NCBI RefSeq assembly: GCF_900141775.1
Contig: NZ_FSRI01000001.1
Location: forward strand, 1,458,251 to 1,522,250
From: Salinivibrio sp. ES.052
GTDB lineage: Bacteria; Pseudomonadota; Gammaproteobacteria; Enterobacterales; Vibrionaceae
Length of the DNA: 64,000 nucleotides
Reading direction: 5' to 3'
The translations under genes were made by a program, and so were the position numbers. Positions 3,071 through 25,153 of this stretch are shown here, piece after piece; the stretch's first letter is position 1, and each line of letters starts with the position of its first letter. Under the pieces are notes generated by a model that saw only the letters and a program-made list of their open reading frames with translations, ran no database searches and was not told where the DNA came from.

Positions 3071-3081
3071 ATCGTCACATA

Positions 3082-4393: not shown

Positions 4394-4422
4394 AAAAGGC
4401 CTGCTAGAGAAGCAGGCCTTTT
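4394..4422. terminator. Bidirectional rho-independent terminator
   Basis: The 12-bp perfect stem AAAAGGCCTGCT / AGCAGGCCTTTT with loop AGAGA lies between the convergent fasciclin gene and the choV end of the osmoprotection operon. Confidence 0.9.
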
Positions 4423-4455
4423 GTATGGTGAGACGAAGGGCTGACTCGTGGTGAG

Positions 4456-5658: not shown

Positions 5659-5668
5659 GGTTTCCCCC

Positions 5669-6511: not shown

Positions 6512-6523
6512 AATAAAACCTTA

Positions 6524-6545
6524 GGGGCGGCGTTCACACCGCCCT
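6524..6545 (-). other. GC-rich hairpin between choX and choW
   Basis: GGGCGG (6525-6530) pairs with CCGCCC (6539-6544), extended by one more pair after a mismatch, with a four-base loop. There is no T-run, so it is more likely an mRNA-stabilising or attenuating hairpin between the binding-protein and permease genes than a full terminator. That role is inference. Confidence 0.5.
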
Positions 6546-6564
6546 CTCCTCTACACTTTTTTAT

Positions 6565-7524: not shown

Positions 7525-7568
7525 CTTAATTTCCTTGTAATGCTTACTGATTAGTTTCTAGTGTGTGC

Positions 7569-9269: not shown

Positions 9270-9289
9270 ATTGGTCGCTCCGTTAAAAA

Positions 9290-10750
9290 TTAGGCGTAAG
9301 GACTGGCGAAGTCGCCAAGCTCAATGAATACACTCTTGGTTTGGGTATAGTGCGTGAGGGTTTCGACACCATTTTCACGACCAACGCCTGAGTGCTTGTA
9401 ACCACCGACTGGCATCTCTGCGGGTGAATCACCCCAGGTGTTTACCCAGCAAATACCCGCTTCAAGCTGATGAATAACTCGGTGGGCACGTGATAGGTTC
9501 TGAGTAAAGATACCTGCCGCGAGGCCATAGTGCGTGTTGTTAGCGCGTGCTACCACTTCATCTTCGTCAGAGAAACGCAGTACCGACATCACAGGGCCAA
9601 AGATTTCTTCACGCACATGGGCCATGCTGTCGTCACAATCAGTGAAAATGGTGGGTGCCACAAAGTTACCTTTGTCTAAACCATTCTCAGTGACACGGTA
9701 ACCACCAGCTAGCAAGGTCGCGCCGCTTTGTTTTGCGGTTTCAATCGCCGTCATCACTTTATGAAGATGCTCGGTTGAAATCAGTGCCCCCACTTGGGTA
9801 TTCATATCGGTCGGGTCACCAATGACGAGCTTTTCAGTACGCGCTTTTAGCTGCTCAACAAAGGCATCGTAAATGCTGTCATGCACAAACACACGCGTGC
9901 CGTGCGTACAGACTTCGCCTTGGGTATAAAAGTTAGCAACCATGGCGGCGGACACTGCGTTATCAAGATCCGCATCATCAAACACGATACAAGGTGATTT
10001 TCCACCTAATTCCATCGTGACGGATTTCAGTGTTTTGGCCGCATCACCCATCACGGTTTTGCCTGTGCCGACTTCACCGGTAAACGATACTTTGGCGATC
10101 TCTGGATGCGCGGTCAGCATTTGCCCGACACGATAGTCACCCTGAACCACGTTAAATACACCAGCAGGCATACCTGCCTCAGCAAAGATCTCTGCCAGTT
10201 TCAGTGCGGTCAAGGGCGTTTCTTCTGATGGCTTAAAGACCATCGCATTACCCGCGGCCAATGCTGGTGCTGACTTCCACATCGCAATCTGAATAGGATA
10301 ATTCCACGCACCAATACCGGCACAAACACCCAACGGCTCGCGTCGTGTATAGAAGAATTGGTTGTCTGATAACGGCTGTTGCTCACCCTGCATAGAAGGA
10401 ACCAGGTTAGCAAAGTATTCAATAGCATCCGCACCGGTGACCACGTCAACCTCGACCGCTTCTTGCATCGGCTTACCGGTGTCTAGTACTTCAAGTTTCG
10501 CCAGTTCATCATTGCGCTCACGTAGCAGCGCAACCGCTTTCAGCAAAATACGGCTACGTTCCATGGCGGTCATACGCGACCACACGGCGAAGCCCTGCTT
10601 CGCGGCATCGACCGCAGCTTGTACATCGTCTGCCGAGGCCTGGCCAATTTGCGCCAACGTTTCACCCGTTGCCGGGTTGACTGTTGCAAACTGCTCGCCG
10701 CTCGTTGCGGTGGTTAGCTGGCCATTAATAAAAAGCGTTTTCGCATCCAT
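9290..10750 (-). CDS. betB: Betaine aldehyde dehydrogenase BetB
   Basis: The 486-residue NAD(P)-dependent aldehyde dehydrogenase converts betaine aldehyde to glycine betaine. The catalytic glutamate E247 lies in MELGGKSP and the nucleophile C281 in [12 protein letters not shown]; the cofactor-loop [10 protein letters not shown] is present. I place the start at 10750 ([10 protein letters not shown]), which has AGGA eight bases upstream; the longer frame has no such support. Length agrees with E. coli BetB (490). It lies between betI and betA. Confidence 0.95.
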
Positions 10751-10804
10751 GATTAATCCTGAATTCTTGTCTATTCGTATGTGCATGTAAGGCTATAAGC
10801 GGTC

Positions 10805-11407
10805 TTAGCGCTGAGGGCGACCATAAAAGGTCAGTTGCTTATCTAAATAATCATTGATGATGGTGCGTGCGTTATTGGCATCAATACCTTTAGGGTTCAA
10901 TGCACCACGCAACCAAATACCATCAATCAATGCGGCAATTCCCTGAGCGACCATCGCAGCCTGCTCTTCTGGCAATAGTGCGCGAAGCTCTATTCGCAAA
11001 TGAGACAGCAAGCGTTTTTCGTTCACACGTTGTAAACGATGTAACTCATTGTCATGCATGGCATAAGACCAAAACGCCAACCAGGTTTTAACCACATCAG
11101 ACTTTGCCTGAAACCCTTCAAAGTTCGCGTTGATGATCGCGTTGATACGCACTTGGTGATGATGACGAGGGATCTCACGCAATGCACCGATCACTGTTGC
11201 TGACAGCTCGCGTAGAACCACACGCATCGTCTCTTCCAGTAAGCCATGCTTACCACCAAAATAGTGGTTAATAATGCCTGTTGATACGCCGGCTTCCTTA
11301 CTAATCAAAGAAATACTTGCCGCATGTAGCCCCACCCGACCAATCACCGTCATCGTGGCTTTAACTAACTGCGGTTTTCGTACTTCCGGCATCCCTACCT
11401 TAGGCAT
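10805..11407 (-). CDS. betI: TetR-family repressor BetI
   Basis: The 200-residue protein has an N-terminal TetR helix-turn-helix (about residues 20-65, with [16 protein letters not shown]) and a BetI-type ligand-binding C-terminal domain. BetI represses bet genes and is relieved by choline. The start at 11407 has GGAG six bases upstream. It is the first gene of the six-gene osmoprotection operon, and a candidate operator lies about 20 bp upstream. Confidence 0.93.
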
Positions 11408-11424
11408 TTTGTCTCCATTCATTT

Positions 11425-11444
11425 TTAATTGAACGATTAGTTAA
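11425..11444. promoter_or_regulatory. Candidate BetI operator
   Basis: TTAATTGAACGATTAGTTAA is an imperfect inverted repeat whose left half (ATTGAACG) resembles known BetI sites. It lies just upstream of betI, where autorepression would be expected. The right half is degenerate. Confidence 0.4.
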
Positions 11445-11881
11445 AGATAATCTTACACGCTAATCATTAGATCTCAAATATTATTTTTAACCAATTTGCT
11501 ACACCTAACCCCACCAAAAAACAGCTAGATAAAGACAAAACAATGATTTAGGTCAATTCTAGCCACACTGATTCCACGACTAATATTTTGTGTTGATAGC
11601 ACTATTTATGACCAAGGCGACGAAAAAACACACAACCCTACTCCCTAAACCAGGGATTAATAAGAGCCATAAAGAAGATCATTTCGTTACTGACTGTATG
11701 TAAAGAAGACTGGATAACTTTGAAAAAGACGATTTAAGCGGCAAAAATGCGGAAATTAGCGACAAATGCCTACACAGTATAAGCATTAAAGCACACTTAC
11801 TCCTATAGACATCAAATAACATCAAGAGAAAGGACTGACACCAATGGGCAAACAGACAAACAAATGAGGTGTAATAGTTAA

Positions 11882-11901
11882 CACCCTAAACGTTTAGGGT
11901 G
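11882..11901. repeat. Perfect 20-bp palindrome followed by a T-run
   Basis: CACCCTAAACGTTTAGGGTG is a perfect inverted repeat. Five bases later there is a run of seven T on the plus strand. It could be a regulator binding site or the terminator of an unrecognised plus-strand transcript. Confidence 0.6.
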
Positions 11902-12010
11902 ACAAGTTTTTTTATTGATAGGCTTGGCTGAAAGAGTCAATGTCAGGATAGAGAGGAGGTAACGTGATGTAATGCTTTGGTGACGTGACTCACCAGATAA
12001 GAAAAGGCAT

Positions 12011-12046
12011 AAGAAAGCGCTCAGACGTTATAAAAAGTCTGAGCGC
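12011..12046 (-). terminator. Probable terminator of the cydAB operon
   Basis: The 10-bp perfect stem GCGCTCAGAC / GTCTGAGCGC (12017-12046) has a 10-base loop and lies just downstream of cydB. On the minus strand it is followed by TTTCTTATG, a moderate T-run. Confidence 0.7.
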
Positions 12047-12070
12047 CTCGGTGGTTACATTAACGTGGTA

Positions 12071-13069
12071 TTAATCGTAGTTAAGCTCAGTTGCTTTACC
12101 CGAGAACACTCGGTAGACAAACAAGGTATACAAAAAGATCATCGGCAAAACGAACATCGCGCCGTAACCGACAATCAGTAATGTCCCTGTTGCACTCGCC
12201 GCTTCTTGTGCCGTCATCACCCCTGGCACAATGTCAGGGAAGAAGCTATACGCCAACCCGAAAAAGCTTAACGCGAAGAGACAGATAGCGCCAATAAATG
12301 GGAATTGGTATCCCACGTCATTCTCAACCGGCACATGGCGTAAATAGCGATCGACCAACAACATGATCACTAAACATACCAACGGAACCGGTGCGAGTAG
12401 CAAAATCTCAGGAAAGCCAAACCAACGCTCAGCCACGGTATTGCTAACCAACGGGTTAACGATACTAATGGCTAACACACCCAGTGCCGCCAACCAGCCT
12501 CCGCGACGAGACCACTTAGCGGCGCGCTTTTGTAAGTCACCCTCGGTTTTCATCACCAACCAAGTCCCACCAATATAGATGTAGGCGGCGGTAACACAAA
12601 GACCACTTAGCAGCGCAAACAAGTACGCACCTGTGCTGTCATCAAACGCCAGTACATAGCGACCAATCATGTAGCCTTGCGTCATAGACGCGATAAAGGA
12701 ACCGGCTTTAAAGCAGCGGTCCCAAAGGTCTTTGCGCTCCGGCTTCACTTTGGCTCGAAAATCAAACGACACGCCGCGCAAAATAAGACCCGCCAACATC
12801 ACGGACGTGGGCAAATACAACTCGGTCAAAATCAGGCTATGTGCAGTCGGAAATGCAATCAACAATATCCCGACGGCCAGCACTAACCACGTTTCGTTGG
12901 CATCCCAAAAAGGCCCAATGGATGCAATCATCCGATCACGTTGCGCTTGGTTACAGCGGGGAAGCAACATACCAACCCCTAAATCGTACCCATCTAATAC
13001 CGCATACATAAATACCGTAAACCCAAAGAGCAATAGATAGATCTCTGGTAAATGAGGAGTGATGGTCAT
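12071..13069 (-). CDS. cydB: Cytochrome bd-type ubiquinol oxidase subunit II
   Basis: This 332-residue membrane protein with about eight helices shows the subunit II pattern FMYAVLDGYDLGVGML near the N-terminus and WDANETWLVLAVG. It is shorter than E. coli CydB (379) and resembles the cyanide-insensitive CioB type. It overlaps the end of cydA by four bases (ATGA), showing translational coupling. Together with CydA it reduces oxygen at the expense of ubiquinol without pumping protons. Confidence 0.9.
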   Translation of the reverse strand: MTITPHLPEIYLLLFGFTVFMYAVLDGYDLGVGMLLPRCNQAQRDRMIASIGPFWDANETWLVLAVGILLIAFPTAHSLILTELYLPTSVMLAGLILRGVSFDFRAKVKPERKDLWDRCFKAGSFIASMTQGYMIGRYVLAFDDSTGAYLFALLSGLCVTAAYIYIGGTWLVMKTEGDLQKRAAKWSRRGGWLAALGVLAISIVNPLVSNTVAERWFGFPEILLLAPVPLVCLVIMLLVDRYLRHVPVENDVGYQFPFIGAICLFALSFFGLAYSFFPDIVPGVMTAQEAASATGTLLIVGYGAMFVLPMIFLYTLFVYRVFSGKATELNYD

Positions 13070-14415
13070 ACGTTCACCTCTTTGGTTGGCTGTGCATTGC
13101 TTGCGTCGTCGAATTGATACTCTGGCAAACGTTTTTTCGCCAAGAAGAAAAGGGTGCGAATGTACGCGATCATTAGCACCGCATAGAGCGTGAGATAGAT
13201 AGTCAACGAAATCCCCACATTGGCACTGGAGACTGTCGTGACTGCATCAGCAGTTTTCAGCACGCCTTGCACTAGCCAAGGCTGACGGCCAATTTCCGTC
13301 ACATACCAGCCAGAAAGCGTAGCGACCCAACCAGAGAAGGTCATTGCCACCAAACCTATTAGGTGCCATTGGGGCATCGGGTGGTTACGCCACACACGAT
13401 AAGCCGTAAACCAGCTCACCAGCAGCATTAGTACACCCACACCCACCATGATCCGGAAACCAAAGAACAGTGGCTTTACCGGTGGATGATAATCAAAGCT
13501 TTCCAAGCCTTTAATTTCACCATCGAGTTTGTGGGTTAGAATCAAACTGGCCAGGTTCGGGATCCCGACTTCATAGTCGTTTGATCGCGTTTCTTCGTTA
13601 GGCACCGCGAACAATAGCAAAGGTGCCCCTTGTTCGGTCTCCCACACACCTTCCATCGCCGCAATTTTCTGTGGCTGGTGCTCCAGGGTGTTTAACCCGT
13701 GCATGTCCCCCACAAAAATTTGTAACGGGATTAAGATAGCCGCGGCCGTTATCCCGACTTTCAGTGGCTTATCCGCCACATTGGATGTCGGTGACTTCAG
13801 TTTTTGATACGCCGAGATCCCGGCAATCAAGAACGAGGCGGTGAGGCCAGACGCCAGCAGCATGTGGCTCAAACGGTATGGCATCGATGGATTAAAAATC
13901 ACCTCAAACCAGCTGGTTGGGTGAACAACCCCTTCAATGATCTCAAAGCCAGTCGGTGTGTGCATCCAACTATTGAGGACTAAAATCCAGAATGCAGAAA
14001 TGGTGGTCCCAATCGCCACCAACAACGTGGCCAATGTGTGCACCCAGTTTGGCACACGGTTTTTACCAAACAGCATGATACCGAGGAAAGTCGCCTCCAT
14101 GAAAAAGGCGGTCATGACCTCGTAACCCAACAACGGCCCCGCGATATTACCCACTTTTTCCATAAAGCCAGGCCAATTGGTACCGAACTGGAAGCTCATG
14201 GTGATCCCAGAGACCACCCCCAGCGCAAACGTCAGTGCAAAAATTTTGACCCAGAAATAATACGTATCGAGCCAAATTTGTTCACCCGTACGGTTGTGTC
14301 TAAATTTAAAAAATACCAGCATCCAACCAAGTGCAATCGTGATGGTGGGAAACAGGATGTGGAAGCTGATATTGGCCGCAAACTGGATCCGCGACAACAT
14401 GAATGTATCTAACAT
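13066..14415 (-). CDS. cydA: Cytochrome bd-type ubiquinol oxidase subunit I
   Basis: The 449-residue haem-binding subunit has H19 (a haem b595/d ligand region), E99 and E107 in GYEVMTAFFMEATFLG, H184 in RLSHMLLASG, and the GRQPW motif near the C-terminus. The Q-loop is short compared with E. coli CydA (522), which places it with CIO/bd-II-like oxidases. It lies 18 bp after a GbsR-like regulator gene and is coupled to cydB. No cydX-like small gene is visible after cydB. Confidence 0.92.
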   Translation of the reverse strand: MLDTFMLSRIQFAANISFHILFPTITIALGWMLVFFKFRHNRTGEQIWLDTYYFWVKIFALTFALGVVSGITMSFQFGTNWPGFMEKVGNIAGPLLGYEVMTAFFMEATFLGIMLFGKNRVPNWVHTLATLLVAIGTTISAFWILVLNSWMHTPTGFEIIEGVVHPTSWFEVIFNPSMPYRLSHMLLASGLTASFLIAGISAYQKLKSPTSNVADKPLKVGITAAAILIPLQIFVGDMHGLNTLEHQPQKIAAMEGVWETEQGAPLLLFAVPNEETRSNDYEVGIPNLASLILTHKLDGEIKGLESFDYHPPVKPLFFGFRIMVGVGVLMLLVSWFTAYRVWRNHPMPQWHLIGLVAMTFSGWVATLSGWYVTEIGRQPWLVQGVLKTADAVTTVSSANVGISLTIYLTLYAVLMIAYIRTLFFLAKKRLPEYQFDDASNAQPTKEVNV

Positions 14416-14433
14416 GACATTACCCTCAGGAGT

Positions 14434-14997
14434 TTAACTACCCGATTCTTCGTTGGATTTGCTGTGAAACAACTTGCCCGACAGCTCAAGGAGCTTGCCG
14501 ACGCTGCTGCCCAGCTTCATCAAATTTTTCAGATGTTCAGGTTTCATTTGCTGAACATCATCAAACCAATGGTTAAACAGCTCTAAAAGATCGTGGATCT
14601 CATGCAGCTGCGTCACCGCGTGACTGTCTGCGTCATCCTCACTTCGCATGAAATGCGAGCGCAGCATGGATAAGGTAGGGTCGACTTCCCGCTTCTTCCT
14701 TTCGGCGAGAACTTGCTGCGCCAACTCCCAAATAGTGCCATTAGGCACAAAGTAATCCTTTCTATCACCGGGAGTACGCTGAGAGCGGATCAAGTGCCAG
14801 CCTTGTAACTCTTTGGTTGCCATACTGACATTGCCACGAGAAATAGTGAGCGCAGAGACAATATCGTCAGCACTTAGCGGGTGCTCACTAAGCACGATCA
14901 GCGCAAGCATCTCGCCGACCGAGCGATTAAAGCCCCAACGGCTACCCATTTCACCGAAGTGCATAACGACATTTCGTAACTCTTGTGACAGCTCCAT
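14434..14997 (-). CDS. GbsR/MarR-family transcriptional regulator
   Basis: The 187-residue protein has a winged helix-turn-helix of the GbsR subgroup of MarR (COG1510 type), with LALIVLSEHPLSADDIVSALTISRGNVSMATKEL at about residues 31-64. A predicted helical C-terminal half follows. GGGAGATCAAG precedes the ATG. It is the first gene of a three-gene operon with cydA and cydB, so it probably controls that oxidase. Bacillus GbsR senses choline, but nothing here shows that ligand. Confidence 0.82.
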   Translation of the reverse strand: MELSQELRNVVMHFGEMGSRWGFNRSVGEMLALIVLSEHPLSADDIVSALTISRGNVSMATKELQGWHLIRSQRTPGDRKDYFVPNGTIWELAQQVLAERKKREVDPTLSMLRSHFMRSEDDADSHAVTQLHEIHDLLELFNHWFDDVQQMKPEHLKNLMKLGSSVGKLLELSGKLFHSKSNEESGS

Positions 14998-15415
14998 CTT
15001 GATCTCCCTCGCAGTACGTCTGAGAAATAATACGGAGTTTCTTTGTGGGGGATCAATGAAAATTTGGAAATTTCAGAAATTATTGAAAATAGAAAAGCGA
15101 AGTTGTAACTAAAGGTAAGGAGAGATTGTAAATACGTTACACTAACGAGCGATAAAACATGATCGAAGTCACACAGAGTACGTATGCATCAGGAGAAAAG
15201 AAAGGGCCAAAACACACATAGATACACAATTGTGGGATTTATAAACAGAGCGTCTCTCAACAGAAATGGTTTTTGATACTGGAACCACGATTTGGGAGGG
15301 GTACTATCACGTGAAAAACACCACAAGGTTCTACACTTGTAAATGTGCGCAGTCTTATAACTATTCAACATGACGCGCCTATCATTAATACCTGAACAAA
15401 AGGAAGTTTGCTGTC
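14998..15415. other. Divergent promoter region, GbsR-like gene and chemoreceptor gene
   Basis: About 420 AT-rich bases between divergent genes. It must hold the promoters of the cydAB operon and of the soluble chemoreceptor. A minus-strand 60-codon frame here looks random. No clear motif was found. Confidence 0.5.
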
Positions 15416-16711
15416 ATGTTCAAAACGACGCAGCGAGAGCTGGACACCTGTCGCTCCGAAAAAGCCGCTCTCCAAGCAGAACTCGATGCTATCAATACGC
15501 ATATTGCAACCATTACATTTACACCCGACGGTATCATCACCGGTGTTAACGACAAACTCTTAAGTATTATTGGCTACGCCCGCGATGAGGTCATCGGCCA
15601 GCATCACCGCACTGTATGCTTTGACGAGACCAGTCAGGCACCCAGCTATCGGCAGTTTTGGCAATCACTCGCGCAAGGAAAGTCACAAAAAGGGGTTTTT
15701 CGTCGCCGCCATCAATCCGGGCAAGAAATTTGGCTGGAAGCGACTTATGTGCCAATCAAAGATGCCAGCGGCAATGTAGTCAGTATTCGCAAGTTAGCCG
15801 CTGATGTCACCAAACAGCACCAGGATTCACGCCGACAAGAAGCAATATTAACGGCCATTAACCGCTCACTCGCGGTGATTGAATTTGAGCCAGATGGTTC
15901 CATTATCCGCGCAAATGATAACTTTCTCGCTGCAGTGGACTACCAAGATAACGAGATTAAGGGCCAACATCACCGTATGTTCTGTGATCAGGGCTTTTAC
16001 GATGAGAACCCTGATTTCTGGGCGGATCTAGCGCGTGGGCAATTCACTTCTGGGCAATATTTGCGCCGCGATAAATATGGCAACGAAGTTTGGTTAGAAG
16101 CCACCTATAATCCCGTTTTTGATGCAGAAGGGAACGTTCATCGGGTGATCAAGTTCGCCACCGCCATCACCGATACGGTGAAACGAAACCAAGCAGTCAA
16201 CCAGGCCGCAGAGCTCGCACAAGCGTCTTCCGAACAAACACTCAGCCATAGTGAGAATGGCAGAGCCCTGTTACAAGAAGCGGTGAAATTATCACAAAAC
16301 GTTACGGAGCAAGCCGTTGAGGCGGCGAACCAAGTCAATCAATTAAGCGAACACGCACAAAGCATTGAAAACATAGTAACCACCATTAAACAGATAGCAG
16401 AGCAAACGAACCTCTTAGCTCTCAACGCAGCCATTGAAGCCGCACGAGCCGGCGAGCAAGGACGTGGGTTTGCGGTGGTCGCCGATGAGGTCCGCGGGTT
16501 ATCACAACGCACCAGCAAATCCACCACCGAAATTGCGGATGTGGTCGATGAAAACCTGCAACTCATTAAAGGAGTCAGTGAGGCGATGGAAAGAGTCACT
16601 GAGCAATCTTCAATGGGGCAAGAAAAAGTGACCGCTGCCGACACTGTGATGGCTGATATTCATGCTGGTGCAGAAGAAGTGTCGGCCACCGTTCACCGCC
16701 TCACCCATTAA
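15416..16711 (+). CDS. Soluble PAS-PAS methyl-accepting chemotaxis protein (BdlA-like)
   Basis: The 431-residue protein has no membrane segment. Two similar PAS domains (about residues 25-135 and 150-258) each end with an EIWLEA/EVWLEA..Y strand and PAC-like segment. They are followed by a short MCP signalling domain with the conserved hairpin tip [18 protein letters not shown]. This architecture and length match Aer-2/BdlA-type cytosolic receptors; Pseudomonas BdlA (417 aa) controls biofilm dispersion. The PAS ligand (haem, FAD or none) is not obvious. An HD-GYP gene follows after 53 bp on the same strand. Confidence 0.87.
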
Positions 16712-16764
16712 AAGCACGCCTACAGCATCAGAGAATGATGGGCGAAAACGGATAAGGAAACACG

Positions 16765-18156
16765 ATGCAGACCCGGCGAAGTGACACGACAGAGTTGAAG
16801 TTATCGGAGCTTATCCTCGCTTTGAGCACAGCGCTGGACATGACGGAAGGACAACCACCCGAACACTGTATGCGCTGTGCTTGGTTGGGGATGAAGATCG
16901 CTGATGCATTGCGGCTAAATGATCAGGAGCGTCACGACCTTTTCTATACTCTGCTGCTCAAAGATGCAGGCTGCAGTAGTAATGCGGCGCGCATCTGTGA
17001 GCTGTATCTCACCAATGATTTGACCTTTAAGCAAAGCTATAAAGTGGTCGATGGTAGTTTATCCAGTGTGCTCAATTTCGTGCTTAAAAATACTGGGGTT
17101 AAGCAAGGCTTTATGCAAAAGCTCTCGACCACACTTGATATCATCCGTAACGGTGATATGTATGCACAAGAGCTAATTGAAACCCGGTGTACCCGTGGTG
17201 CCGATGTCGCGCGCGATCTGCGTTTCAACGAAACCGTCGCTGAAGCCATCTATGCGCTTGATGAGCACTATGATGGAGGCGGCCGTCCAGACCAATTACA
17301 AGCAAACCAAATCCCCTTTTTTTCACGCATCGCACTGATGACACAAGTGATTGATGTGTTCCGAACAGAGTCAGGAATCGATGCCGCACTCAATGAACTA
17401 AAAAACCGTCGCGGCACTTGGTTTGATCCCGAGCTCGTCGATACCTTTTTGCTTGTGGCTCGCGATCCACAATTTTGGCAGCAACTGGATAGCCCTACGT
17501 TAAAAGAAGAAGTGCTGTCGATGACGCCTGCCGACACATGCATTTGGGTTGACGATGATTATATGGATGACATCGCGGCTGCCTTTGGGCGTATTGTTGA
17601 TGCCAAAAGCCCTTTTACCTCAGGTCATAGTGAACGTGTTGCTGTATACGCCAGCTTAATTGCTGACGAGTTAGACATCAGTGAGCAGGATAAGAAATGG
17701 TTAAAGCGTGGCGCTTTGCTGCATGACATTGGCAAATTAGGGGTGAGTAATGACGTGCTCGACAAGCCAGGCAAACTTGATGACGATGAGTGGGAGCATG
17801 TCAAACGACATGCAGCGTTGAGCAAAACGATTTTGTCTCAGATTCACCAGTTTGAGCACCTTGCCAACTTCGCCAGTGCCCACCATGAAAAGCTCAACGG
17901 CTGCGGATATCCAGAGGGGATACAAGGCGATGAAATCTCCCTGCTCACACGCATTATTACCACCGCAGATATTTTTGATGCCATCACCGCTGAGCGACCC
18001 TATCGTGGTGCTATCCCGATGAACAAAGCCTTATCTATCATGAAAGAAGAAACAGGCACAGCAATCGACGCACGCTGCTTACAGGCTTTAATCGCGGGGT
18101 TAGAGCGTCTACCTGAACACTTTATTGTTCATGACGATACATTGATCACATCATAG
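16765..18156 (+). CDS. Tandem HD / HD-GYP cyclic dinucleotide phosphodiesterase
   Basis: The 463-residue protein carries two HD-type domains. The N-terminal one is degenerate: LLLKDAG stands where HD is expected, and EHYDGGGRP replaces the GYP segment. The C-terminal domain (about residues 280-455) is intact, with HSERV, HDIGKLGV, and HHEKLNGCGYPEG, which is the HD-GYP signature. HD-GYP enzymes hydrolyse c-di-GMP, and some Vibrio members act on 3',3'-cGAMP. The substrate cannot be decided from sequence. AAGGAA lies upstream of ATG 16765. It appears co-transcribed with the soluble chemoreceptor. Confidence 0.9.
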   Translation: MQTRRSDTTELKLSELILALSTALDMTEGQPPEHCMRCAWLGMKIADALRLNDQERHDLFYTLLLKDAGCSSNAARICELYLTNDLTFKQSYKVVDGSLSSVLNFVLKNTGVKQGFMQKLSTTLDIIRNGDMYAQELIETRCTRGADVARDLRFNETVAEAIYALDEHYDGGGRPDQLQANQIPFFSRIALMTQVIDVFRTESGIDAALNELKNRRGTWFDPELVDTFLLVARDPQFWQQLDSPTLKEEVLSMTPADTCIWVDDDYMDDIAAAFGRIVDAKSPFTSGHSERVAVYASLIADELDISEQDKKWLKRGALLHDIGKLGVSNDVLDKPGKLDDDEWEHVKRHAALSKTILSQIHQFEHLANFASAHHEKLNGCGYPEGIQGDEISLLTRIITTADIFDAITAERPYRGAIPMNKALSIMKEETGTAIDARCLQALIAGLERLPEHFIVHDDTLITS

Positions 18157-18315
18157 GCACGCCCTATCACGTATATAGGTTAACTCCATTTTCTTTTTTT
18201 ATCTCGGATAGTTACTCTATCCACATCGTTCGGAACAACACCGTTTCCAGTGCTTGACGCTCGCGACTATGCGATGGGTCAAACACCTTGATTTTGCCAC
18301 TTAAGGAGGCATTAG

Positions 18316-18792
18316 ATGAGTAAACAAGCAGCATTGATCGGACTAGACAGCAGCAAAGCCGCAGATCTAGGCGCACGTTTGGATACGCTATTGGCGAATT
18401 ACCAAGTGCTGTACACGAATGTGCGTGGTTTTCACTGGAACATTAAAGGCAACGACTTTTTCGAACTACACATTAAATTTGAGGAGATCTACACGGATCT
18501 TCAAACCAAAATCGATGAAGTGGCCGAGCGCATTCTCACCATCGGTGGCACAGCCGAGCACCGCTTCAGCGAATATCTCAAGGTCAGTGAAATCAAAGAG
18601 CACGCACCAGAGGCGAACGGCCAAGCGGGCTTACGCGCCATTGTTGATGGGTTTAGTGTATTAATTGGCTTACAACGCGACATCATGAACCTCGCCGGTG
18701 AAGCCAACGACGAAGGGACATCCGCGTTGATGAGCGATTACATTCGCGAACAAGAAAAACTGCTTTGGATGTTCAACGCTTACCTTAACTGA
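18316..18792 (+). CDS. dps: Dps-family ferritin-like DNA protection protein
   Basis: The 158-residue protein has the Dps ferroxidase ligands in their usual spacing: H40 (RGFHWNIKG), H52, D67 and E71 (IDEVAERI). Dps proteins form dodecamers that oxidise and store iron using hydrogen peroxide and protect DNA in stress. TAAGGAGG precedes the ATG. It stands alone between the HD-GYP gene and a strong terminator. Confidence 0.92.
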   Translation: MSKQAALIGLDSSKAADLGARLDTLLANYQVLYTNVRGFHWNIKGNDFFELHIKFEEIYTDLQTKIDEVAERILTIGGTAEHRFSEYLKVSEIKEHAPEANGQAGLRAIVDGFSVLIGLQRDIMNLAGEANDEGTSALMSDYIREQEKLLWMFNAYLN

Positions 18793-18826
18793 TCAACACT
18801 CAGTATAAGAATCGGTAATCCATAAT

Positions 18827-18857
18827 AAAGAGGCCCGCGTGAATGCGGGCTTCTTTG
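18827..18857. terminator. Bidirectional terminator between dps and vxrC
   Basis: The stem AAAGAGGCCCGC / GCGGGCTTCTTT (one G-T pair) with a six-base loop separates the convergent dps and vxrC genes. Confidence 0.85.
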
Positions 18858-18873
18858 TGCACGGTTAACCCCC

Positions 18874-19737
18874 TCACTCATTCTTAACGGATCGAGTCAG
18901 TGGCAACGCCAACCACTCAACATATTTCACTTTGATCGCGCCTTGATACTCAAAGTGGCTGACGGTTGCACTGAAGTGCTCGGCATTGTCAGGCGATGTT
19001 GATGGGAGTTTTATCATCGTTGGCGCGTGGGAGGTTTCTGAGCGACCGGACACATAAATCGGCGTTTGCTCAACCCAGCGATAGGCATCGTCAAGCCACA
19101 GCCAGTGCGCAGCTGCCGGCGAGCAACTCGAAGGCGTATCGGGTAAATCGAACGACAGTTGTTTTTCGGGATGGCCAATCAGCTTTACCCATGGCCGACG
19201 AGGCAGCCCATACACCACCAAACTATAGTGCTGACCACCCATTGTTAATTCATAAACACCCGGGATAATTGGAGTGAGTAATCGATCTGACTCTATTTCT
19301 TGATAACCGCTTTTCGCGTTCAAGATCTCATTGAGCACCGTTTCTCCGGTTGGATCAGTGAGTGTCAGCAGCGTGTTACGCTCGACCTCCTCTGCGGAGA
19401 GCTTAATTTCATAACCAATACTTGACGCGCCTGCCCAGCGCATAAAAGCAATAGTCAGCCCTTGAGGGACCCCTTTGCCATTGGGCTCCGTTAACTGTTG
19501 GCCACAATCTGTTTGATTGATGATCGCGTGCTTTATCTTAGACCAACGCTCAGTCGGTATTGTCTGCTGAGACAAAGCAAACATAAGCTCTTGCCACGCC
19601 ACCTTTGGTCGATCAGCCAACAATGCTTGGTAGGTTTCTTGCATCGGAGTTTTAGGGAGCCATGCTTGCTCAGCTCGGACATTAACGCTTAGTACCATGC
19701 ATACAATGACCAGTAACCGGTATCTATTTATCTTCAT
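18874..19737 (-). CDS. vxrC: VxrC-like periplasmic protein (DUF2861)
   Basis: The 287-residue product has a signal peptide (about residues 1-22, ending NVRA) and no other membrane segment. It lies directly after the VxrA/VxrB genes, overlapping vxrB by four bases, which is the order of the Vibrio vxrABC cluster. DUF2861 proteins have no known enzymatic activity. In Vibrio cholerae the cluster controls cell-wall homeostasis and type VI secretion. The identification rests on context as well as sequence. Confidence 0.8.
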   Translation of the reverse strand: MKINRYRLLVIVCMVLSVNVRAEQAWLPKTPMQETYQALLADRPKVAWQELMFALSQQTIPTERWSKIKHAIINQTDCGQQLTEPNGKGVPQGLTIAFMRWAGASSIGYEIKLSAEEVERNTLLTLTDPTGETVLNEILNAKSGYQEIESDRLLTPIIPGVYELTMGGQHYSLVVYGLPRRPWVKLIGHPEKQLSFDLPDTPSSCSPAAAHWLWLDDAYRWVEQTPIYVSGRSETSHAPTMIKLPSTSPDNAEHFSATVSHFEYQGAIKVKYVEWLALPLTRSVKNE

Positions 19738-20378
19738 TGCGCCACCAACCTGTACCCCACCCCGCGGTGAGTTTCGATAGCCAGGTCGGGAATTTTTTGC
19801 CGCAAACGCAATACATGATTATCCACGGTACGCGTCGTCGGAAAGGCTTGATAGCCCCAGATTTTATTCAGTAGCTCCTCTCGGTGGAAAACTCGCCCTT
19901 GGTTTTGCAAAAGTAACAACAGTAAATCAAACTCTTTGGGCTTTAGCGTGACCGCTTCGTCTTGCCAATATACCGCGCGTGATCCTGGCTCAACCTTAAT
20001 CTCGCCGTAGAGCAATTGGCTTTCTCCAAGAGGGCGAAGCTGTGCATAAATACGGGCCAGCAACTCTTGATGCGCAAAGGGTTTAACCACATAGTCTTTG
20101 GCCCCTGCCATTAAGCCTTCAACACGTTGCTCTACTTCTATTTTTGCGGTCAACACAATGACAGGCAACGCTTTCAAAGCCAGCCAAGTGGGCAAATGTG
20201 CCAAGCTATCGCCATCCGCAAGTTGCCGATCTAAGATCACTAAGTCGGCGTGATACCAATGCTTCTCAACCTTTGCGCTTTCCATCAGCCAAGTACAACT
20301 GAAGCCTTGGTTTTCCAAAAACTGGCGTAAGCCCTCACCCAGTAATTTATCGTCCTCAATCAATAACAAATGGCTCAT
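19734..20378 (-). CDS. vxrB: OmpR-family response regulator VxrB (WigR)
   Basis: The 214-residue regulator has a receiver domain (acidic residues D9, D10; phospho-acceptor D50 in LVILDRQL; lysine in YVVKPF) and a C-terminal OmpR/PhoB winged helix with the TRTVDNHVLRLRQK recognition region. The start at 20378 has GGAG eight bases upstream and overlaps the vxrA stop by four bases; the same kind of overlap joins it to vxrC. It should be phosphorylated by VxrA under envelope stress. Confidence 0.9.
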   Translation of the reverse strand: MSHLLLIEDDKLLGEGLRQFLENQGFSCTWLMESAKVEKHWYHADLVILDRQLADGDSLAHLPTWLALKALPVIVLTAKIEVEQRVEGLMAGAKDYVVKPFAHQELLARIYAQLRPLGESQLLYGEIKVEPGSRAVYWQDEAVTLKPKEFDLLLLLLQNQGRVFHREELLNKIWGYQAFPTTRTVDNHVLRLRQKIPDLAIETHRGVGYRLVAQ

Positions 20379-21772
20379 TGGGGTAACTCCAAGATGCAGC
20401 AAGTCGGATGCCGTTTGAGCAATAGCTTTCCGCCCATTTGACGCATTAAACGCGCCACCAAAAATAACCCGATCCCCATATTGTGTTCAGATTTTGGCGC
20501 TTTACAACGTCGCCATAATCGCTGCCACCATGAAGGAAACATACCATCATCATAGACACAAACACGCACGCGCTTACCGACACAGACTCGGATCCAAACC
20601 GTTTCTCCGCCATGCTGATGTGCATTTTTAATCAGGTTTTCCAAGCAAATAGATAACCAGTAAAACGGTAAGGTTAGCGTGCGGTCGTCTTCTAGCACAT
20701 AGTCAATGCCAAAGGGTTCACACACATGATCGAGCCAATCAGAGACTAATGCGGTTTGGGTCTTAAATTGTTCACTCTTGTCAGTGCTCAAATACCCTTT
20801 GCTGGTTTCGGTCAGTTGACTCAATCTTTGATGATCGGCCAGTAACCGCCATAACACATCTTGCGCATCTTCGCTTAAGTGATCGAATTGATTTCGCAGC
20901 ATTTCGACCGTTAACCCTAAGCTCGCAATCGGCGTGCGCAACTCATGCGTCAGTAGTTGAAGAATAAATTGCCGTTCTCGACGCTGTTGATAGCGATCGT
21001 AAAGGCTACGAGCAAGCCCGACCACCAAGGCGATAAAGATCATGACCAGTACTGCGGTAAACACACCTTGATAGGCTGGATGCAACTGGTTACAGATATT
21101 GCCGTAGCGATAATCGCACCCCGTCGCGTCGGTCGACAGGCTCAGTCGATAGTGTTCAGCAATGGGCGACCACACCGATTGGGGCAACACCTTCCAACCC
21201 AATTCCCCATTCAACCACAGCTGATGATCATCTAGGTACGCTCGGTAACCACTGAGTAACGCGTCACGCCCCTGAGCACTCAGGGCGCTTAATGCTTGGT
21301 GCAGCGGATGCTGTGTATTATCAAGTGTTAGGCGTTGGGTTATCTCTGGTGGCGGCGATGCCATAGGATGCTCAGCGAGGTAGCGGTCAGCGTAACTGCC
21401 TCCTGCGGGGTGCAATAGTGGGTTTTCGACAAACCATACCGGCGGCAGTGACCTCCCGCTGCACAGTGCGAGCTCAAAACGCTGAGCAATCAATAAATGT
21501 GGATCAACAATGCGGGGGTTGGCCTGACACCGTTGCACAACCTGATGCAACGCAGCGAGATCTTGCCAGTCGAAACGCTCAAAGCCTGGATACTGCGCTT
21601 GGCTTTCCAAGAGATTTTGCGAATAGGCATTAAGCGATGGCTGAGCTACCACCAAGGTACCCGCTTGCCACGCTTCATCATAAAAGCCTTTGAGTTGCGT
21701 TTGCAGCTCACTGGCTGCCGATTGGCTGCTTAATAAAGCGAACAGTAACGCAACTAACGCTCGAAAAACCAA
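20375..21772 (-). CDS. vxrA: Sensor histidine kinase VxrA (WigK)
   Basis: The 465-residue kinase has a signal peptide, a periplasmic sensor region (about 22-235, the DUF3404 type of VxrA), one membrane helix at 236-254, an H-box with H276 in LTHELRTP, and an ATPase domain (ENLIKNAHQHGG, NMGIGLFLV). It starts with TTG at 21772 behind a strong GGGGAGAG site. VxrA/WigK responds to cell-wall damage in Vibrio. The left end of the Tn7-like remnant lies 165 bp upstream of its start codon. Confidence 0.9.
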   Translation of the reverse strand: MVFRALVALLFALLSSQSAASELQTQLKGFYDEAWQAGTLVVAQPSLNAYSQNLLESQAQYPGFERFDWQDLAALHQVVQRCQANPRIVDPHLLIAQRFELALCSGRSLPPVWFVENPLLHPAGGSYADRYLAEHPMASPPPEITQRLTLDNTQHPLHQALSALSAQGRDALLSGYRAYLDDHQLWLNGELGWKVLPQSVWSPIAEHYRLSLSTDATGCDYRYGNICNQLHPAYQGVFTAVLVMIFIALVVGLARSLYDRYQQRRERQFILQLLTHELRTPIASLGLTVEMLRNQFDHLSEDAQDVLWRLLADHQRLSQLTETSKGYLSTDKSEQFKTQTALVSDWLDHVCEPFGIDYVLEDDRTLTLPFYWLSICLENLIKNAHQHGGETVWIRVCVGKRVRVCVYDDGMFPSWWQRLWRRCKAPKSEHNMGIGLFLVARLMRQMGGKLLLKRHPTCCILELPQ

Positions 21773-21936
21773 TCGACTCTCCCCAGACCTATCATTGCGA
21801 CTCCTGATTAAATCATAGCTAAGCGGTAAAGGGGTGTGTCACCCGAGTGTCAACATCACCGTTCATCAAGGGGACAACGTATCGCATGAATACATCATAA
21901 GAGGGGCACACGGCGAAGCATAAGAAAAAAAGAAGA

Positions 21937-22018
21937 TGTTGCCAACACCATAAACCTTCAAAGCTAAAAATTGAGAACAATGGTTTACGATATTTATGAC
22001 ACCATAAGTTTGCAAATT
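21937..22018 (+). repeat. Left end of the Tn7-like remnant with TnsB-site-like repeats
   Basis: It begins TGTTGCCAACACCATAAA. A first ACACCATAA copy lies at 21945-21953 and a second, ACACCATAAGTTTGCAAA, at 21999-22016 (preceded by TG), so the CCATAA cores are 54 bp apart. Widely spaced transposase sites are usual for Tn7 left ends. Confidence 0.7.
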
Positions 22019-22139
22019 CGTTTAGTACTGAAGATGCAATTGTGTAGCCTTTAAATCTTTGTCTCTTATAAGATTTAAGTCAAAAACAACAAGCGCATTA
22101 CATAGTAAACTCAATCACTCAGTATGAAGGGAGAAGATT

Positions 22140-23072
22140 ATGCCAGGCGCTTTTGCTCATATCACTGCAGTTAACGTTGCTTCTGCGAACAACGTTTTGA
22201 TGTCTCTAAAAATGTCCCTAGCAGCAAAAAAGGCTTTAGCTCAAAACAAAAGGTATTTGGAGCTAGGTTGCGTCAGCCCTGATTATCCTTATCTGGTTCT
22301 GATGGATTCAGCCCAAAACAAATGGGCTGACGAAATGCATTACAACAATGTCGGCAAGTTGATAAGTGCTCTCGTTCAGCAAGTGAAATCAGTAAATAGC
22401 GAACATCACGAAAAAGCCTTTGCATGGTTATGTGGCTTCGTCTCACACGTCGCTGCTGATATTACCATTCATCCCGTGGTTGAGATGAAAGTTGGTCCTT
22501 ATGCTAAAAACGCTAAAGCCCACCGTGTTTGTGAAATGAATCAGGATGCCTATATCTGGTCTTCTCGATTGAGGCTGGGCGATATTGGCATGGCTGATCG
22601 TGTAAAAGAAAACATAGGCAGCTGCGTAGATATCAACAACGACAGTGCCATTGATCCAATTATCAACGACATCTGGCACATCGCACTCAATGCTGCCTAC
22701 CCAGACTACGCCAGTGAATGTCAGCCAAACATCAACGCTTGGCATCAGGGTTTCCAAACAGTTGTAGATAACGCCGAGGAATCCCATCGATTGTTTCCTT
22801 GGGCTCGGCATGTTGCTTCACAACAGGGCTTAACCTACCCCCTTCCCGGTGAAGTCGATACAACTTTTATCGAAAGCCTCGAAACGCCCGATGGTGCTAA
22901 ACACTATGACGAGATTTTTGATAAGGCCGTCGACACAGTCCAGTTATTTTGGGAGAAAGCCGCAGCAGCTGTGTTTGAAGACGCCGAAACAGACTTCTTC
23001 AAAAATTGGAATTTAGATACAGGTCGCTGTGAAAACGGCCAGCTGACAGCTTGGGGGAATCAATGCGATTAA
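22140..23072 (+). CDS. Zinc-dependent phospholipase C-like protein, transposon cargo
   Basis: The 310-residue protein shows the metal-ligand layout of the zinc-dependent phospholipase C / S1-P1 nuclease fold: H7 near the N-terminus, D48 in SPDYP, H67 in DEMHY, and the cluster HVAADITIH (H103, D107, H111) with H128 further on. No signal peptide is evident, so it may be cytoplasmic, unlike secreted phospholipases. AAGGGAG precedes the ATG. A lipoprotein gene overlaps its end by 10 bases. The substrate is unknown; it is an intact gene inside a decayed Tn7-like element and probably acquired with it. Confidence 0.7.
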   Translation: MPGAFAHITAVNVASANNVLMSLKMSLAAKKALAQNKRYLELGCVSPDYPYLVLMDSAQNKWADEMHYNNVGKLISALVQQVKSVNSEHHEKAFAWLCGFVSHVAADITIHPVVEMKVGPYAKNAKAHRVCEMNQDAYIWSSRLRLGDIGMADRVKENIGSCVDINNDSAIDPIINDIWHIALNAAYPDYASECQPNINAWHQGFQTVVDNAEESHRLFPWARHVASQQGLTYPLPGEVDTTFIESLETPDGAKHYDEIFDKAVDTVQLFWEKAAAAVFEDAETDFFKNWNLDTGRCENGQLTAWGNQCD

Positions 23073-23491
23073 TCACTGCTCTTGTAATGCTTATGGCTAT
23101 AGCGTCTTGCTCCACGCAAGCTAAATACTCGAATGAAGTGATGTATGACATGGCATCTATTCTTAAAGATGTATCCCAAGCTGTTGACGGTGAGCTTAAG
23201 TGGGGAAATACCGAAGGACTCAGCCAAGAAAAGATTATCTCAAATGCCACCTTGACCAACCCCAGTCAACTACCAGAGCTCGAAGTGCTCGCCAAAGAAG
23301 CGAAAGTGACTAACTATCGATTACTACAGGAGTTTCAAGGGGGCAATGCGGTCATGCTGATATGTGACGGTGACGTGGCACTTATGGAGGACGCTGGCTG
23401 CAACGCCGAATTTGACAAGATCTATTGGAAGTCGCCGAGACCAAATACCTGTAGCATTAACCTTGATGCCGCAGCACTTTGCTCAAACTAA
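23063..23491 (+). CDS. Small predicted lipoprotein of unknown function, transposon cargo
   Basis: The 142-residue product begins MRLITALVMLMAIASC, a short lipoprotein signal with lipobox IASC (Cys16), so it should be lipid-anchored in the envelope. The mature part is mostly polar, with four further cysteines in its second half (ICDGD, AGCNAE, NTCSIN, ALCSN) that could form disulfides. ATG 23063 has GGGGGAA upstream and lies within the end of the phospholipase-like gene, suggesting coupled translation. I do not recognise the family. It ends within 10 bases of the dead tnsA stop on the opposite strand. Confidence 0.65.
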   Translation: MRLITALVMLMAIASCSTQAKYSNEVMYDMASILKDVSQAVDGELKWGNTEGLSQEKIISNATLTNPSQLPELEVLAKEAKVTNYRLLQEFQGGNAVMLICDGDVALMEDAGCNAEFDKIYWKSPRPNTCSINLDAAALCSN

Positions 23492-24092
23492 AGCCTTATT
23501 GAGGGTAAGCCTGTCCTTGCCCTTCAATTCTGCCTGCAATTGCCCACGAGACATTAACGCCAGCGCTTTGGCTTTTCGCACCCCGATAGACACATGAATC
23601 CGTTGTGGTAGAAGGCTAACCCACTTGATGTCACCACTTTGAGCAACTGTACTTGCATAACATTTATGCCAACAATACCTGTATAACAGTGCAACAGCTT
23701 TAGATTGTATAGGACTGAATTAACTCTGATTTGGTTATCGGTTACCAGTTAAAGAGGACATCCCAAAGACTTCGCTACAGCCATCTTGCCGACAAACTTC
23801 CGACGATACTCATCCCCGTCAATTTAACTGGCAGGCTTTATCTCCAGAAATGCCTCACTCCCACCTTTATAGCTAACCCAAAAATCTGGCGTTTAAGGCA
23901 ACTTTTTGCCTTCAAATTGATAGTAAAAACCTTCTGGCTGAGCCTCGAAACACACAATTTCTTTGCAATATTCGAGTGAAAGCAGGTATCGAACTCTAAT
24001 GAGGATTCAACGGTAAGAATGGTACTGTTCTTTAAGCTTCAGAACTTAAAGTGATTTTTGACGCGGGAGTGCTTTAGATTGCGACGATACAT
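23483..24092 (-). pseudogene. tnsA: tnsA pseudogene (Tn7-like transposase endonuclease subunit)
   Basis: Read on the minus strand from ATG 24092, the frame gives MYRRNLKHSRVKNHFKF, a stop, then STILTVESSLEFDTCFH, a frameshift near 23977, then LEYCKEIVCFEAQPEGF, YYQFEGKKLP, stop, TPDFWVSYKGGSEAF, LEIKPAS, stop, and EYRRKFVGKMAVAKSLG. This is the TnsA N-terminal nuclease pattern with its catalytic Glu (SSLE), Asp (TPDF) and EIK lysine. Stops are TGA 24039-24041 and TAA at 23893-23895, 23824-23826 and 23749-23751. After a second frameshift (about 23640-23680) the tail KALALMSRGQLQAEL resembles the TnsA C-terminal domain. It is near full length but non-functional. Confidence 0.85.
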
Positions 24093-24134
24093 GGGCGTTT
24101 ACCACATGTTGTTTTATTACAAATAAATGTAGTT

Positions 24135-24179
24135 GTGCAAGTTTATGATGCTAATTGCAAACTTATGGTGTCAGAAAGA
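24135..24179 (-). repeat. Right end of the Tn7-like remnant with two TnsB-site-like repeats
   Basis: Read inward on the minus strand from 24179 it starts TCTTTCTGACACCATAAG. Copy one, ACACCATAAGTTTGCAAT, is at 24171-24154; copy two, CATCATAAACTTGCAC, is at 24150-24135. The CATAA cores are exactly 20 bp apart. Closely packed sites are typical of the Tn7 right end, the end next to the attachment gene. Confidence 0.7.
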
Positions 24180-24191
24180 GAAAGTCACAAA

Positions 24192-24305
24192 GGGCGGAGA
24201 CCTCCCCAGCTACATCCCGGCACACACGTCCCAAGCGCGAGCTGCTTCCTTCCGGACCTGACCCAGTACACAAGATAGTGTTGCGGGAGAACCAAGGAGG
24301 CCTCC
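24192..24305 (-). ncRNA. ffs: 4.5S RNA of the signal recognition particle
   Basis: On the minus strand this 114-base gene carries the universally conserved SRP core GGTCCGGAAGGAAGC with its GGAA tetraloop, and the opposite bulge segment GTGCCGGGATGTAGC. The 5' end GGAGGCCTCC pairs fully with the 3' GGAGGTCTCC (one G-U pair). The length equals that of E. coli 4.5S RNA. It binds Ffh and targets nascent membrane proteins to FtsY. A good promoter lies upstream. The 3' end abuts the Tn7-like right end. Confidence 0.96.
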
Positions 24306-24340
24306 ATCGATATGTCGTTAAGCTTGCTTAACTGCGGGGC

Positions 24341-24369
24341 ATTATGTGGCATGGCCGAATGCAATGCAA
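24341..24369 (-). promoter_or_regulatory. Promoter of ffs
   Basis: On the minus strand TTGCAT (24369-24364) and CATAAT (24346-24341) are spaced by 17 bp. A GC-rich discriminator GCCCCGC follows, as is common for stable RNA genes under growth-rate control. Transcription should start near 24334, giving a leader of about 29 bases that is trimmed away. Confidence 0.7.
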
Positions 24370-24421
24370 GAAGGATTCAATATCTCGGTGATTAACTGTT
24401 GATCTTCTAAGCAATTGTTCT

Positions 24422-25153
24422 TTATTCGTCATCAGGATCGTCCATAAGTAAGTACTCTCCAACCCAAATAGCTGCAAGCATAGCAGCCCATGCCACCAGT
24501 AAAGACATGGTTAACTGCCAGGGGGCAACCCAGGTAATCACCAAAAACGGTATCCCAGGCAATACATGCAACGCAAGATGGCGAGAACGCGCAAAATGAG
24601 GAGTCATCCCTACCCATTGCAGTAACCAAATCATGGCCACGATCGAGGCACTCCACAGTGCGGATGGCCACCCCACGGTTACGGCTAAAATGGGTAACAC
24701 CAACCAAGCACCGTGTCGCGGCGGTTGATAGCCAGGCCAATAAATAATCGCGAGCCATACCCCGAGTAATGCCACGATTTGAAGCGCCAATAGCCAAGGT
24801 GAACCCCCTAATTTTGCTTCAGACTGCAACGCCATCATGCCTGCAAACATGGCAATCATCACAGCCCCCAATAGGTATTTAACGTGTGGGTGCCTATCAG
24901 GGTTAAACCATAACGACAATGCAGGCAAAAGCAATAAAGTACTGGCCGCCAGTAACGCCGGTAATTGGGGCAATGCATAAGCAAACGCCGTCATCGCCAG
25001 GACCAATAACCAACTAGCCACTTTTTCGGGATAGAAGAAGAATAACGAGGGGGCAACGATCGCCAAACCATGCAGCGAATAATCAGCACTGATACCCGCT
25101 GCGACCGCTATCGTTGCAACCAATGAGGGCCATATAAACGAGGTGATCCGCAT
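24422..25153 (-). CDS. Predicted inner-membrane protein of unknown function
   Basis: The 243-residue product is almost entirely hydrophobic, with about eight predicted membrane segments and a short acidic C-terminus (MDDPDDE). The start at 25153 (MRITSFIW) has AAGGAG five bases upstream. I do not recognise a family. It lies between ffs and ybaY, where E. coli has ybaZ, and could be co-transcribed with ybaY, whose stop is 41 bp upstream of this start. Confidence 0.65.
   Translation of the reverse strand: MRITSFIWPSLVATIAVAAGISADYSLHGLAIVAPSLFFFYPEKVASWLLVLAMTAFAYALPQLPALLAASTLLLLPALSLWFNPDRHPHVKYLLGAVMIAMFAGMMALQSEAKLGGSPWLLALQIVALLGVWLAIIYWPGYQPPRHGAWLVLPILAVTVGWPSALWSASIVAMIWLLQWVGMTPHFARSRHLALHVLPGIPFLVITWVAPWQLTMSLLVAWAAMLAAIWVGEYLLMDDPDDE

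Follow-up and report, generated by a model that had tools for sequence, protein, structure and literature searches.

A probable deletion relic of a type I-F3 CRISPR-associated transposon beside ffs in Salinivibrio, and relatives that carry a second SRP RNA gene

Tn7 has the proteins TnsABC, makes a 5-bp target duplication and sets its TnsA-type right end by a conserved gene. For CRISPR-associated transposons (CASTs) of type I-F3, the primary paper on homing by crRNA is reportedly Petassi 2020, in Cell. According to a review, crRNAs direct I-F3b elements to ffs and rsmJ, and I-F3a elements to guaC and yciA (PMC11406308). The PAM is TC at 96.6% of ffs sites (PMC12774636), and SRP-RNA insertions occur in Vibrio, including the elements of V. 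cholerae and V. parahaemolyticus (PMC6360697). The same review describes an I-F3 branch with a second TniQ, in which one TniQ recognises the att site directly, at parE (PMC11406308). A preliminary description of the DNA studied here had grouped guaC, yciA and ffs with glmS as targets of TnsD/TniQ, but the review lists those three as crRNA-recognised I-F3 sites (PMC11406308).

With the two-TniQ branch at parE the elements described below have the I-F3 machinery in common, but their target is ffs, and a Pfam TniQ scan of two genomes with full elements found one TniQ in each (G059 and G328). With Tn7, which TnsD directs to glmS, they share TnsABC, the 5-bp duplication and the TnsA-type right end by a conserved gene, whereas the site would be chosen by a crRNA and TniQ-Cascade here and is chosen by the gene-reading TnsD in Tn7. 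With type I-F3b CASTs at ffs, which include relatives of the element on the Aeromonas salmonicida plasmid pS44-1 (Tn6900/AsCAST), they share the order tnsABC-tniQ-cas8/5-cas7-cas6-array, an ffs-like spacer and a right end that adjoins ffs. In contrast to the published elements of this type, the copy studied here is a deletion relic, and its nearest full relatives add a second SRP RNA gene beside the array.

A decayed element beside ffs and its full relatives

The window, by which we mean the whole stretch of 64,000 nucleotides of Salinivibrio sp. ES.052 that was analysed, carries ffs on the minus strand, where 24297-24201 matches Rfam RF00169 with 64.1 bits against a cut-off of 40; this is the sole SRP RNA match in the genome. 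The 3′ end of the gene lies at about 24192 (CCGCCC), the hexamer being presumably the mature 4.5S end, by analogy with the 4.5S RNA of E. coli. Next to it, 21937-24179 is a decayed Tn7-like element whose two ends are still present, with a broken tnsA and a pair of intact cargo genes between them (Table 1). The right terminus at 24179 reads TCTTTCTGACACCATAAG on the minus strand (TGTTTCTG in relatives); 12 bp separate it from CCGCCC and 80 nt from the start of the protospacer. The left terminus at 21937 reads TGTTGCCAACACCATAAAC, and an inverted repeat of 23 nt (96%) joins 21993-22015 and 24155-24177. The position of the right end just past the ffs 3′ end had been described before, at 13 bp by another counting convention, and the ends and the tnsA pseudogene bear out the earlier view that the element is Tn7-like with its right end (tnsA side) facing ffs. 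Repeated TnsB-like sites, named by resemblance, are present at the ends. The 5-bp flanks, GAAGA on the left and GAAAG on the right, agree at three of five positions and are, on comparison with the TCTTC found on both sides in the sister species G004, a degraded target duplication; the duplication is perfect in G004 and in five relatives. Elsewhere in the window, 46278-46573 holds a tandem trio of tRNA genes with a start-to-start spacing of 107 bp.

Table 1. Features of the relic, its target and its flank, in positions of the window
Feature	Position	Strand	Basis or remark
Chromosomal flank: histidine-kinase-like ORF, beyond ffs at the empty site	20375..21772	-	ORF; function by eye; flank conserved in G001, G002, G005
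Left copy of target duplication (GAAGA)	21932..21936		TCTTC on the minus strand in G004
Transposon left end	21937..22016	+	Terminus TGTTGCCAACACC at 21937; TnsB-like sites at 21945, 21999
Cargo: zinc-dependent phospholipase C-like protein, intact	22140..23072	+	Pfam PF00882, 2.1e-25; 89% to G059
Cargo: small lipoprotein-like ORF (by eye), intact	23051..23491	+	87% to the gene past the array in G059
Internal deletion junction between tnsA and cargo	23489..23521		Same junction in G004, G007; G059 gene order
tnsA pseudogene, frameshifted, final codons lost at the deletion junction	23522..24092	-	Three tblastn pieces to G059 TnsA, 60-85%
Transposon right end, TnsB-like sites (named by resemblance)	24110..24179	-	Terminal TG mutated to TC
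Right copy of target duplication, degenerate (GAAAG vs GAAGA)	24180..24184		Perfect TCTTC/TCTTC in G004
ffs, 4.5S / small SRP RNA gene, homing target	24192..24305	-	RF00169 at 24201-24297; single long hairpin fold, z -2.6; no other match in the genome
Protospacer of the lost guide (inferred, 32 nt), with PAM TC at 24260-24261	24228..24259	-	Placed by homology with relatives; its start is 80 nt from the right terminus

For the Tn7-type proteins TnsA, TnsB and TnsC, the tnsA pseudogene alone remains in the window. Missing at the internal junction are tnsB, tnsC, tniQ, cas8/5, cas7, cas6 and the CRISPR array; no tniQ, cas gene or array was seen elsewhere in the window, and no TniQ was found in its genome with the Pfam TniQ model. 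In five comparisons with the window copy, dN/dS was 0.11-0.23 for the phospholipase C-like gene and 0.10-0.15 for the lipoprotein-like ORF, which had no match in a Pfam search; across all 15 pairs of the six copies of each gene it was 0.09-0.23, tnsA decaying meanwhile. By these ratios the two cargo genes look to be under purifying selection.

The missing genes are found in relatives. When tnsA and the right end were searched for across the family (329 genomes), 24 genomes matched, that of the window among them, and one genus group supplied six of these matches (G056, G058, G059, G061, G066 and G020). TnsA, TnsB, TnsC, TniQ, Cas8/5, Cas7 and Cas6 were matched in Enterovibrio coralii (G056, with cas7 split over two frames), Enterovibrio sp. 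ZSDZ42 (G058), Grimontia indica AK16 (G059), Enterovibrio sp. ZSDZ35 (G066) and G328, whose element is divergent (TnsA 39%). The tnsA and right-end DNA of the window is 87-90% identical to that of four relatives and 78% to that of a fifth. In G059, whose proteins match Pfam TniQ, Csy2, Csy3 and Csy4, the order is ffs, right end, TnsA, TnsB, TnsC, HTH, TniQ, Cas8/5, Cas7, Cas6, array, lipoprotein, phospholipase. The genes for the lipoprotein and the phospholipase correspond to the cargo of the window, and the pair lies beyond the array in G056 and G058 as well, but not in G066. The spans, in the orientation of the analysis, are 2504-18391 (G059), 1954-19255 (G066), 1674-19613 (G056), 2245-20316 (G058) and about 2196-34413 (G328), each with a perfect 5-bp duplication (GTTCT, GTTTT, GTTTC, TTTCG and CCATT, respectively). 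The elements adjoin ffs in G056, G058, G059 and G066, and the distance check proposed earlier gave the same place in the ffs-homing relatives, 12, 12, 12 and 13 bp past the gene; G020 is another relic, at the same place and distance.

A spacer that matches ffs follows a repeat in all five full relatives and is the last spacer in G056, G058, G059 and G066. The guides of these four are 32 nt long and mismatch the host ffs at all five every-sixth positions (6, 12, 18, 24, 30), at which type I Cascade tolerates mismatch, and at only three (G059, G066, G056) or four (G058) of the other 27; the 20-nt guide of G328 mismatches its host only at 12 and 18. Against the ffs of the window the four guides have 3-5 mismatches among the 27 (G059 4, G066 3, G056 4, G058 5). 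For a wider view, 75 Cas7 loci were drawn from species genomes with the Cas7 of six elements, in each of which an ffs-like spacer was recognised by eye. In 55 of the 75 a repeat is followed directly by an ffs-type spacer, a sample that is not a census since all its queries had such spacers; with 200 permuted motifs as a control, the mean was 0.8 loci and the highest count 23.

We conclude that 21937-24179 is very probably what a deletion has left of a CRISPR-associated Tn7-like transposon of type I-F3, which by its target belongs to the ffs-homing branch (I-F3b), and we infer that the window copy formerly had the genes and the guide of its relatives; with no array in the window, its own guide cannot be read. 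To judge from the relatives, a crRNA would be made from the last CRISPR spacer of the element, TniQ-Cascade would pair it with a protospacer inside ffs (PAM TC) to give an R-loop, after which TnsC and TnsAB would bring in the transposon, right end leading, at a point about 48 bp beyond where the guide ends. Taken alone, the relic is unremarkable: its class is known from print, and this copy has decayed.

A second SRP RNA gene inside five elements

An RF00169 search of the 329 genomes, with strict filters under which weak copies may be lost, gave a match in 325 and two matches in five, namely G056, G058, G059, G066 and G328. These five represent two lineages, and in every one the additional copy is part of the element, placed beyond the array and just past the guide. 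A covariance model run over 77 sources returned 14 matches, four of them the element copies of G056, G058, G059 and G066 and ten the ffs genes at right ends; a repeated Rfam scan excluded L040, L038 and L039. Of the searches for plasmid relatives of the element copies, one found none and another gave 16 records, 14 over the SRP part and two (H6, H21) over the array part. G061, with its element on short contigs, yielded no second copy. We found no description of a second SRP RNA gene in ffs CASTs in the literature searched, the coverage of which was partial.

The element copies take up the 4.5S RNA fold, at z values between -3.1 and -7.0 (-2.6 and -4.5 for two host copies). Those of the four Enterovibrio and Grimontia elements are identical to their own host copy at 69-75 of 118 aligned columns (58-64%) and conserve almost all stem pairs. 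When 13 host and element copies were aligned, standard pairs filled 99.5% of the pair cells, and in 13 of the 34 pairs both sides had changed; none of 500 shuffles reached either figure, the structure being derived from the same alignment and host-to-host changes being included. Between elements the copies are 93-97% identical, as against 40-79% at the fourfold sites of five tns and cas genes. The neighbouring cargo genes are nearly as alike (88-90% in three elements), so that part of the likeness of the copies reflects recent exchange, and the conservation of the copies relative to cargo is modest (three pairs, P 0.0017, 0.012 and 0.19). No consensus promoter was found directly upstream of the G059 element copy.

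The G328 copy, at 24636-24732, represents a whole ffs locus: 258 bp, some 140 of them upstream, share 83% identity with the locus of the host, and its downstream part is 81% identical over 140 bp to the sequence beyond the left end of the element. A GCCGC...GCGGC hairpin followed by a T run is present in both of these downstream stretches, so that the insertion parted the host ffs from that hairpin and the inner copy has one.

In all five elements, four of which share descent, the element copy is a poorer target for the guide than the host copy. Outside the every-sixth positions, the mismatches go from 3 in the host copy to 12 in the element copy in G059 and G066, from 3 to 9 in G056 and from 4 to 9 in G058 (of 27), and from 0 to 4 in G328 (20 nt, 17 of them outside every-sixth positions). 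Within the seed (1-8), the host copy has no mismatch in G059, G056 and G328 and one at position 3 in G066 and G058, and the element copy is mismatched at 3 and 4 in G059, G066 and G056, at 4 in G058 and at 3, 4 and 5 in G328. The seed argument was dropped for G058, which has one seed mismatch in each copy; only the whole-guide count (4 vs 9) favours it there. The CAGA change was also rejected as a sole mark of escape from the guide, being found in 12 of 81 distinct pattern-matched SRP sequences, seven of them outside elements; the carriers are the five element copies, the G066 host copy, L189, L013, L020, L022, L060 and L065. The change from G to A at position 3 is present in seven sequences outside elements, and the pairing rules still allow the crRNA a G-T wobble where G has become A. 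In the host ffs of G066 (L079, 18069-18165), the seed is changed from AGG to AGA under the guide of its own element.

The second gene could well be a passenger without function that is carried along with the array. Among the ffs-type loci, 50 extend for 1 kb or more past the spacer; no such gene was found in 46 of these, the other four having element copies (G328 lies outside the 75 loci), so homing does not need it; the G328 copy took in a whole locus whose flank has diverged about as much as its RNA part, and the modest conservation of the other four relative to cargo also suits a passenger. Against this stand the 4.5S-like fold, the stem pairs kept in four elements in spite of low identity to the host copy, the likeness between elements far above that of fourfold sites, and the same position just past the guide in two lineages. 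The guide region of the element copies may simply have drifted with the rest of the gene.

More tentatively, and with considerable doubt, some CASTs that home to ffs might bring with them a rescue copy of this essential gene, at which their guide RNA is aimed. The R-loop formed by crRNA and TniQ-Cascade inside ffs would threaten the gene, and so would the insertion, which in G328 cut ffs off from a terminator-like hairpin. The SRP RNA gene of the element, changed under the guide and with its stems kept by paired changes, would stay expressed. The relic in the window would then descend from a rescue-carrying group and would since have lost the segment.

Descent of the relic in the genus

Seven other species of the genus were compared with the window. 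The same relic with the same junction is present in G004 and G007. The site is empty in G001, G002 and G005, where the left flank of the window resumes 150-153 nt after the ffs core as against 2399 nt in the window; the insertion has thus separated ffs from its former downstream sequence, as had been stated. G003 and G006 lack the relic and have unlike sequence at the site, about 70 bp longer by blastn coordinates. Their sequence between ffs and the kinase gene (L039 and L038, respectively) differs from that of the empty-site species, with repeated ACAACnAACTGAT motifs in G006, and this extra sequence is possibly the trace of another Tn7-like element. It had also been suggested that 4.5S RNA termination may now depend on transposon DNA. 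A simple scan for intrinsic terminators found none, either over 21800-24400 or where the site is empty in G005, a silence that says little since the same scan missed the plain hairpin with a T run in G328.

The relic of G007 (L034/L035) is mixed. Its phospholipase gene has a dS of 0.155 to that of Grimontia vs 0.474 to that of the window, its lipoprotein gene has a dS of 0.265 to that of the window vs 0.555 to that of Grimontia, and its left end is Grimontia-like by eye. On these values, the G007 relic likely recombined later with an incoming element. The deletion probably predates the split of the three relic-bearing species.

The 2.2-kb unit might instead be a non-autonomous mini-element, mobilised in trans by a full element and inserted separately in the three species. 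In favour of this, both ends are retained and both cargo genes are intact, but one junction at one place is common to the three species, the terminal TG of the window copy is mutated, and the differences in G007 are likely due to the later recombination. Vertical descent of a single deleted copy is simpler, and we consider mobilisation in trans improbable.

Guide length and the choice of the insertion site

Among the 55 loci with an ffs-type spacer, the stem of the next repeat starts 23-25 nt past the guide start in 24 and 37-39 nt past it in 17, and a strict stem finder placed none in 14; these two distance classes point to short (about 20 nt) and long (about 32 nt) guides. Short ffs guides are found in L189, L190, L211, G328 and 21 more loci; for L170, L185 and G328 the assignment to a class was made by eye. 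In the literature searched we found natural I-F3 guides of such short length discussed nowhere.

The right terminus was measured in 16 ffs insertions, nine with long guides, three relics and four with short guides. The termini of L185, L170, L164, G082, G081, L189, L190 and L211 were placed by eye, without a checked duplication, and the count leaves out L218 (terminus not placeable), G087, G021 and G007, whose right end lies at 13-14 bp by eye. From the protospacer start, the terminus of long-guide elements lies at 80 nt in G059, G066, G056, L185 and L164, at 81 nt in G058 and L170 and at 79 nt in G082 and G081; in the relics without a guide (G020, G004 and the window) it lies at 80 nt, and in short-guide elements at 68 nt in L189, L190 and G328 and at 69 nt in L211. 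The PAM is TC in all eight elements of one set and in nine of the ten of another, in which L185 has CC. Insertion is constant at about 48 bp past the guide end over both classes, with a shift of about 12 bp with guide length, and the 80 nt of the window agree with this if the guide length is as assumed. The gap past the ffs end is 10-17 bp in long-guide elements and relics (n = 12) and 1-3 bp in short-guide elements (n = 4). The insertion point thus tracks the length of the guide and not the end of ffs, which argues that the guide RNA chose the site.

One relative appeared to lie elsewhere. The right end of the G061 element (TnsA 97% to G059) adjoins Mu-like prophage genes (Pfam Mu DNA-binding, Mu-transpos_C and GemA) and not ffs; on its contig (L133), genes for a MuA-like transposase, an AAA/TniB-like protein, GemA and an endolysin-like protein occupy 1111-10252, and the transposon right end is at 14264. 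The 14 bp before the G061 right terminus are the 14 bp after its own ffs, on another contig, and occur once in each stretch. G061 would accordingly be an ffs insertion later split by the prophage, although the contigs do not prove it, and an insertion at an unrelated locus is rejected with less certainty than the reading of ffs by a TnsD.

It is highly improbable that a TnsD/TniQ-type protein bound ffs DNA and fixed the distance past the gene as TnsD of Tn7 does at glmS. In favour of this, the right end adjoins the gene at a distance that hardly varies within one lineage, two TniQ matches (one under the cut-off) occur in G061, and an I-F3 branch does use a second TniQ, though at parE (PMC11406308). 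Against it, ffs spacers are present in the relatives, the two full-element genomes scanned gave a single TniQ each, and the distance from the ffs end varies over 1-17 bp where that from the guide end holds at about 48. The preliminary description had proposed such a protein, to be judged by the distance from ffs and by relatives at unrelated loci. Of this, site-specific homing to ffs stands and a protein that reads the SRP RNA gene does not; the near-constant distance was borne out within the lineage and failed over the 16 insertions, and the right end of G061 beside Mu-like genes is an apparent exception to a single locus, read here as a split ffs insertion. That interpretation was half right, being supported in part, and the mechanism is to be replaced by RNA-guided homing of a type I-F3b CAST.

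Natural ffs insertions in two guide-length classes allow RNA-guided and protein-guided homing to be separated by sequence alone, and suggest that TniQ-Cascade may work with guides of about 20 nt in nature. The feature that we did not find described in the literature searched, a resident SRP RNA gene beside the guide, belongs to the group of relatives and not to the relic. A transposon with its own version of the essential RNA gene that it targets bears on how harm is avoided to a host whose ffs it must bind, and if the rescue reading is true, it would be a natural counterpart of the recoded rescue genes in engineered gene drives.
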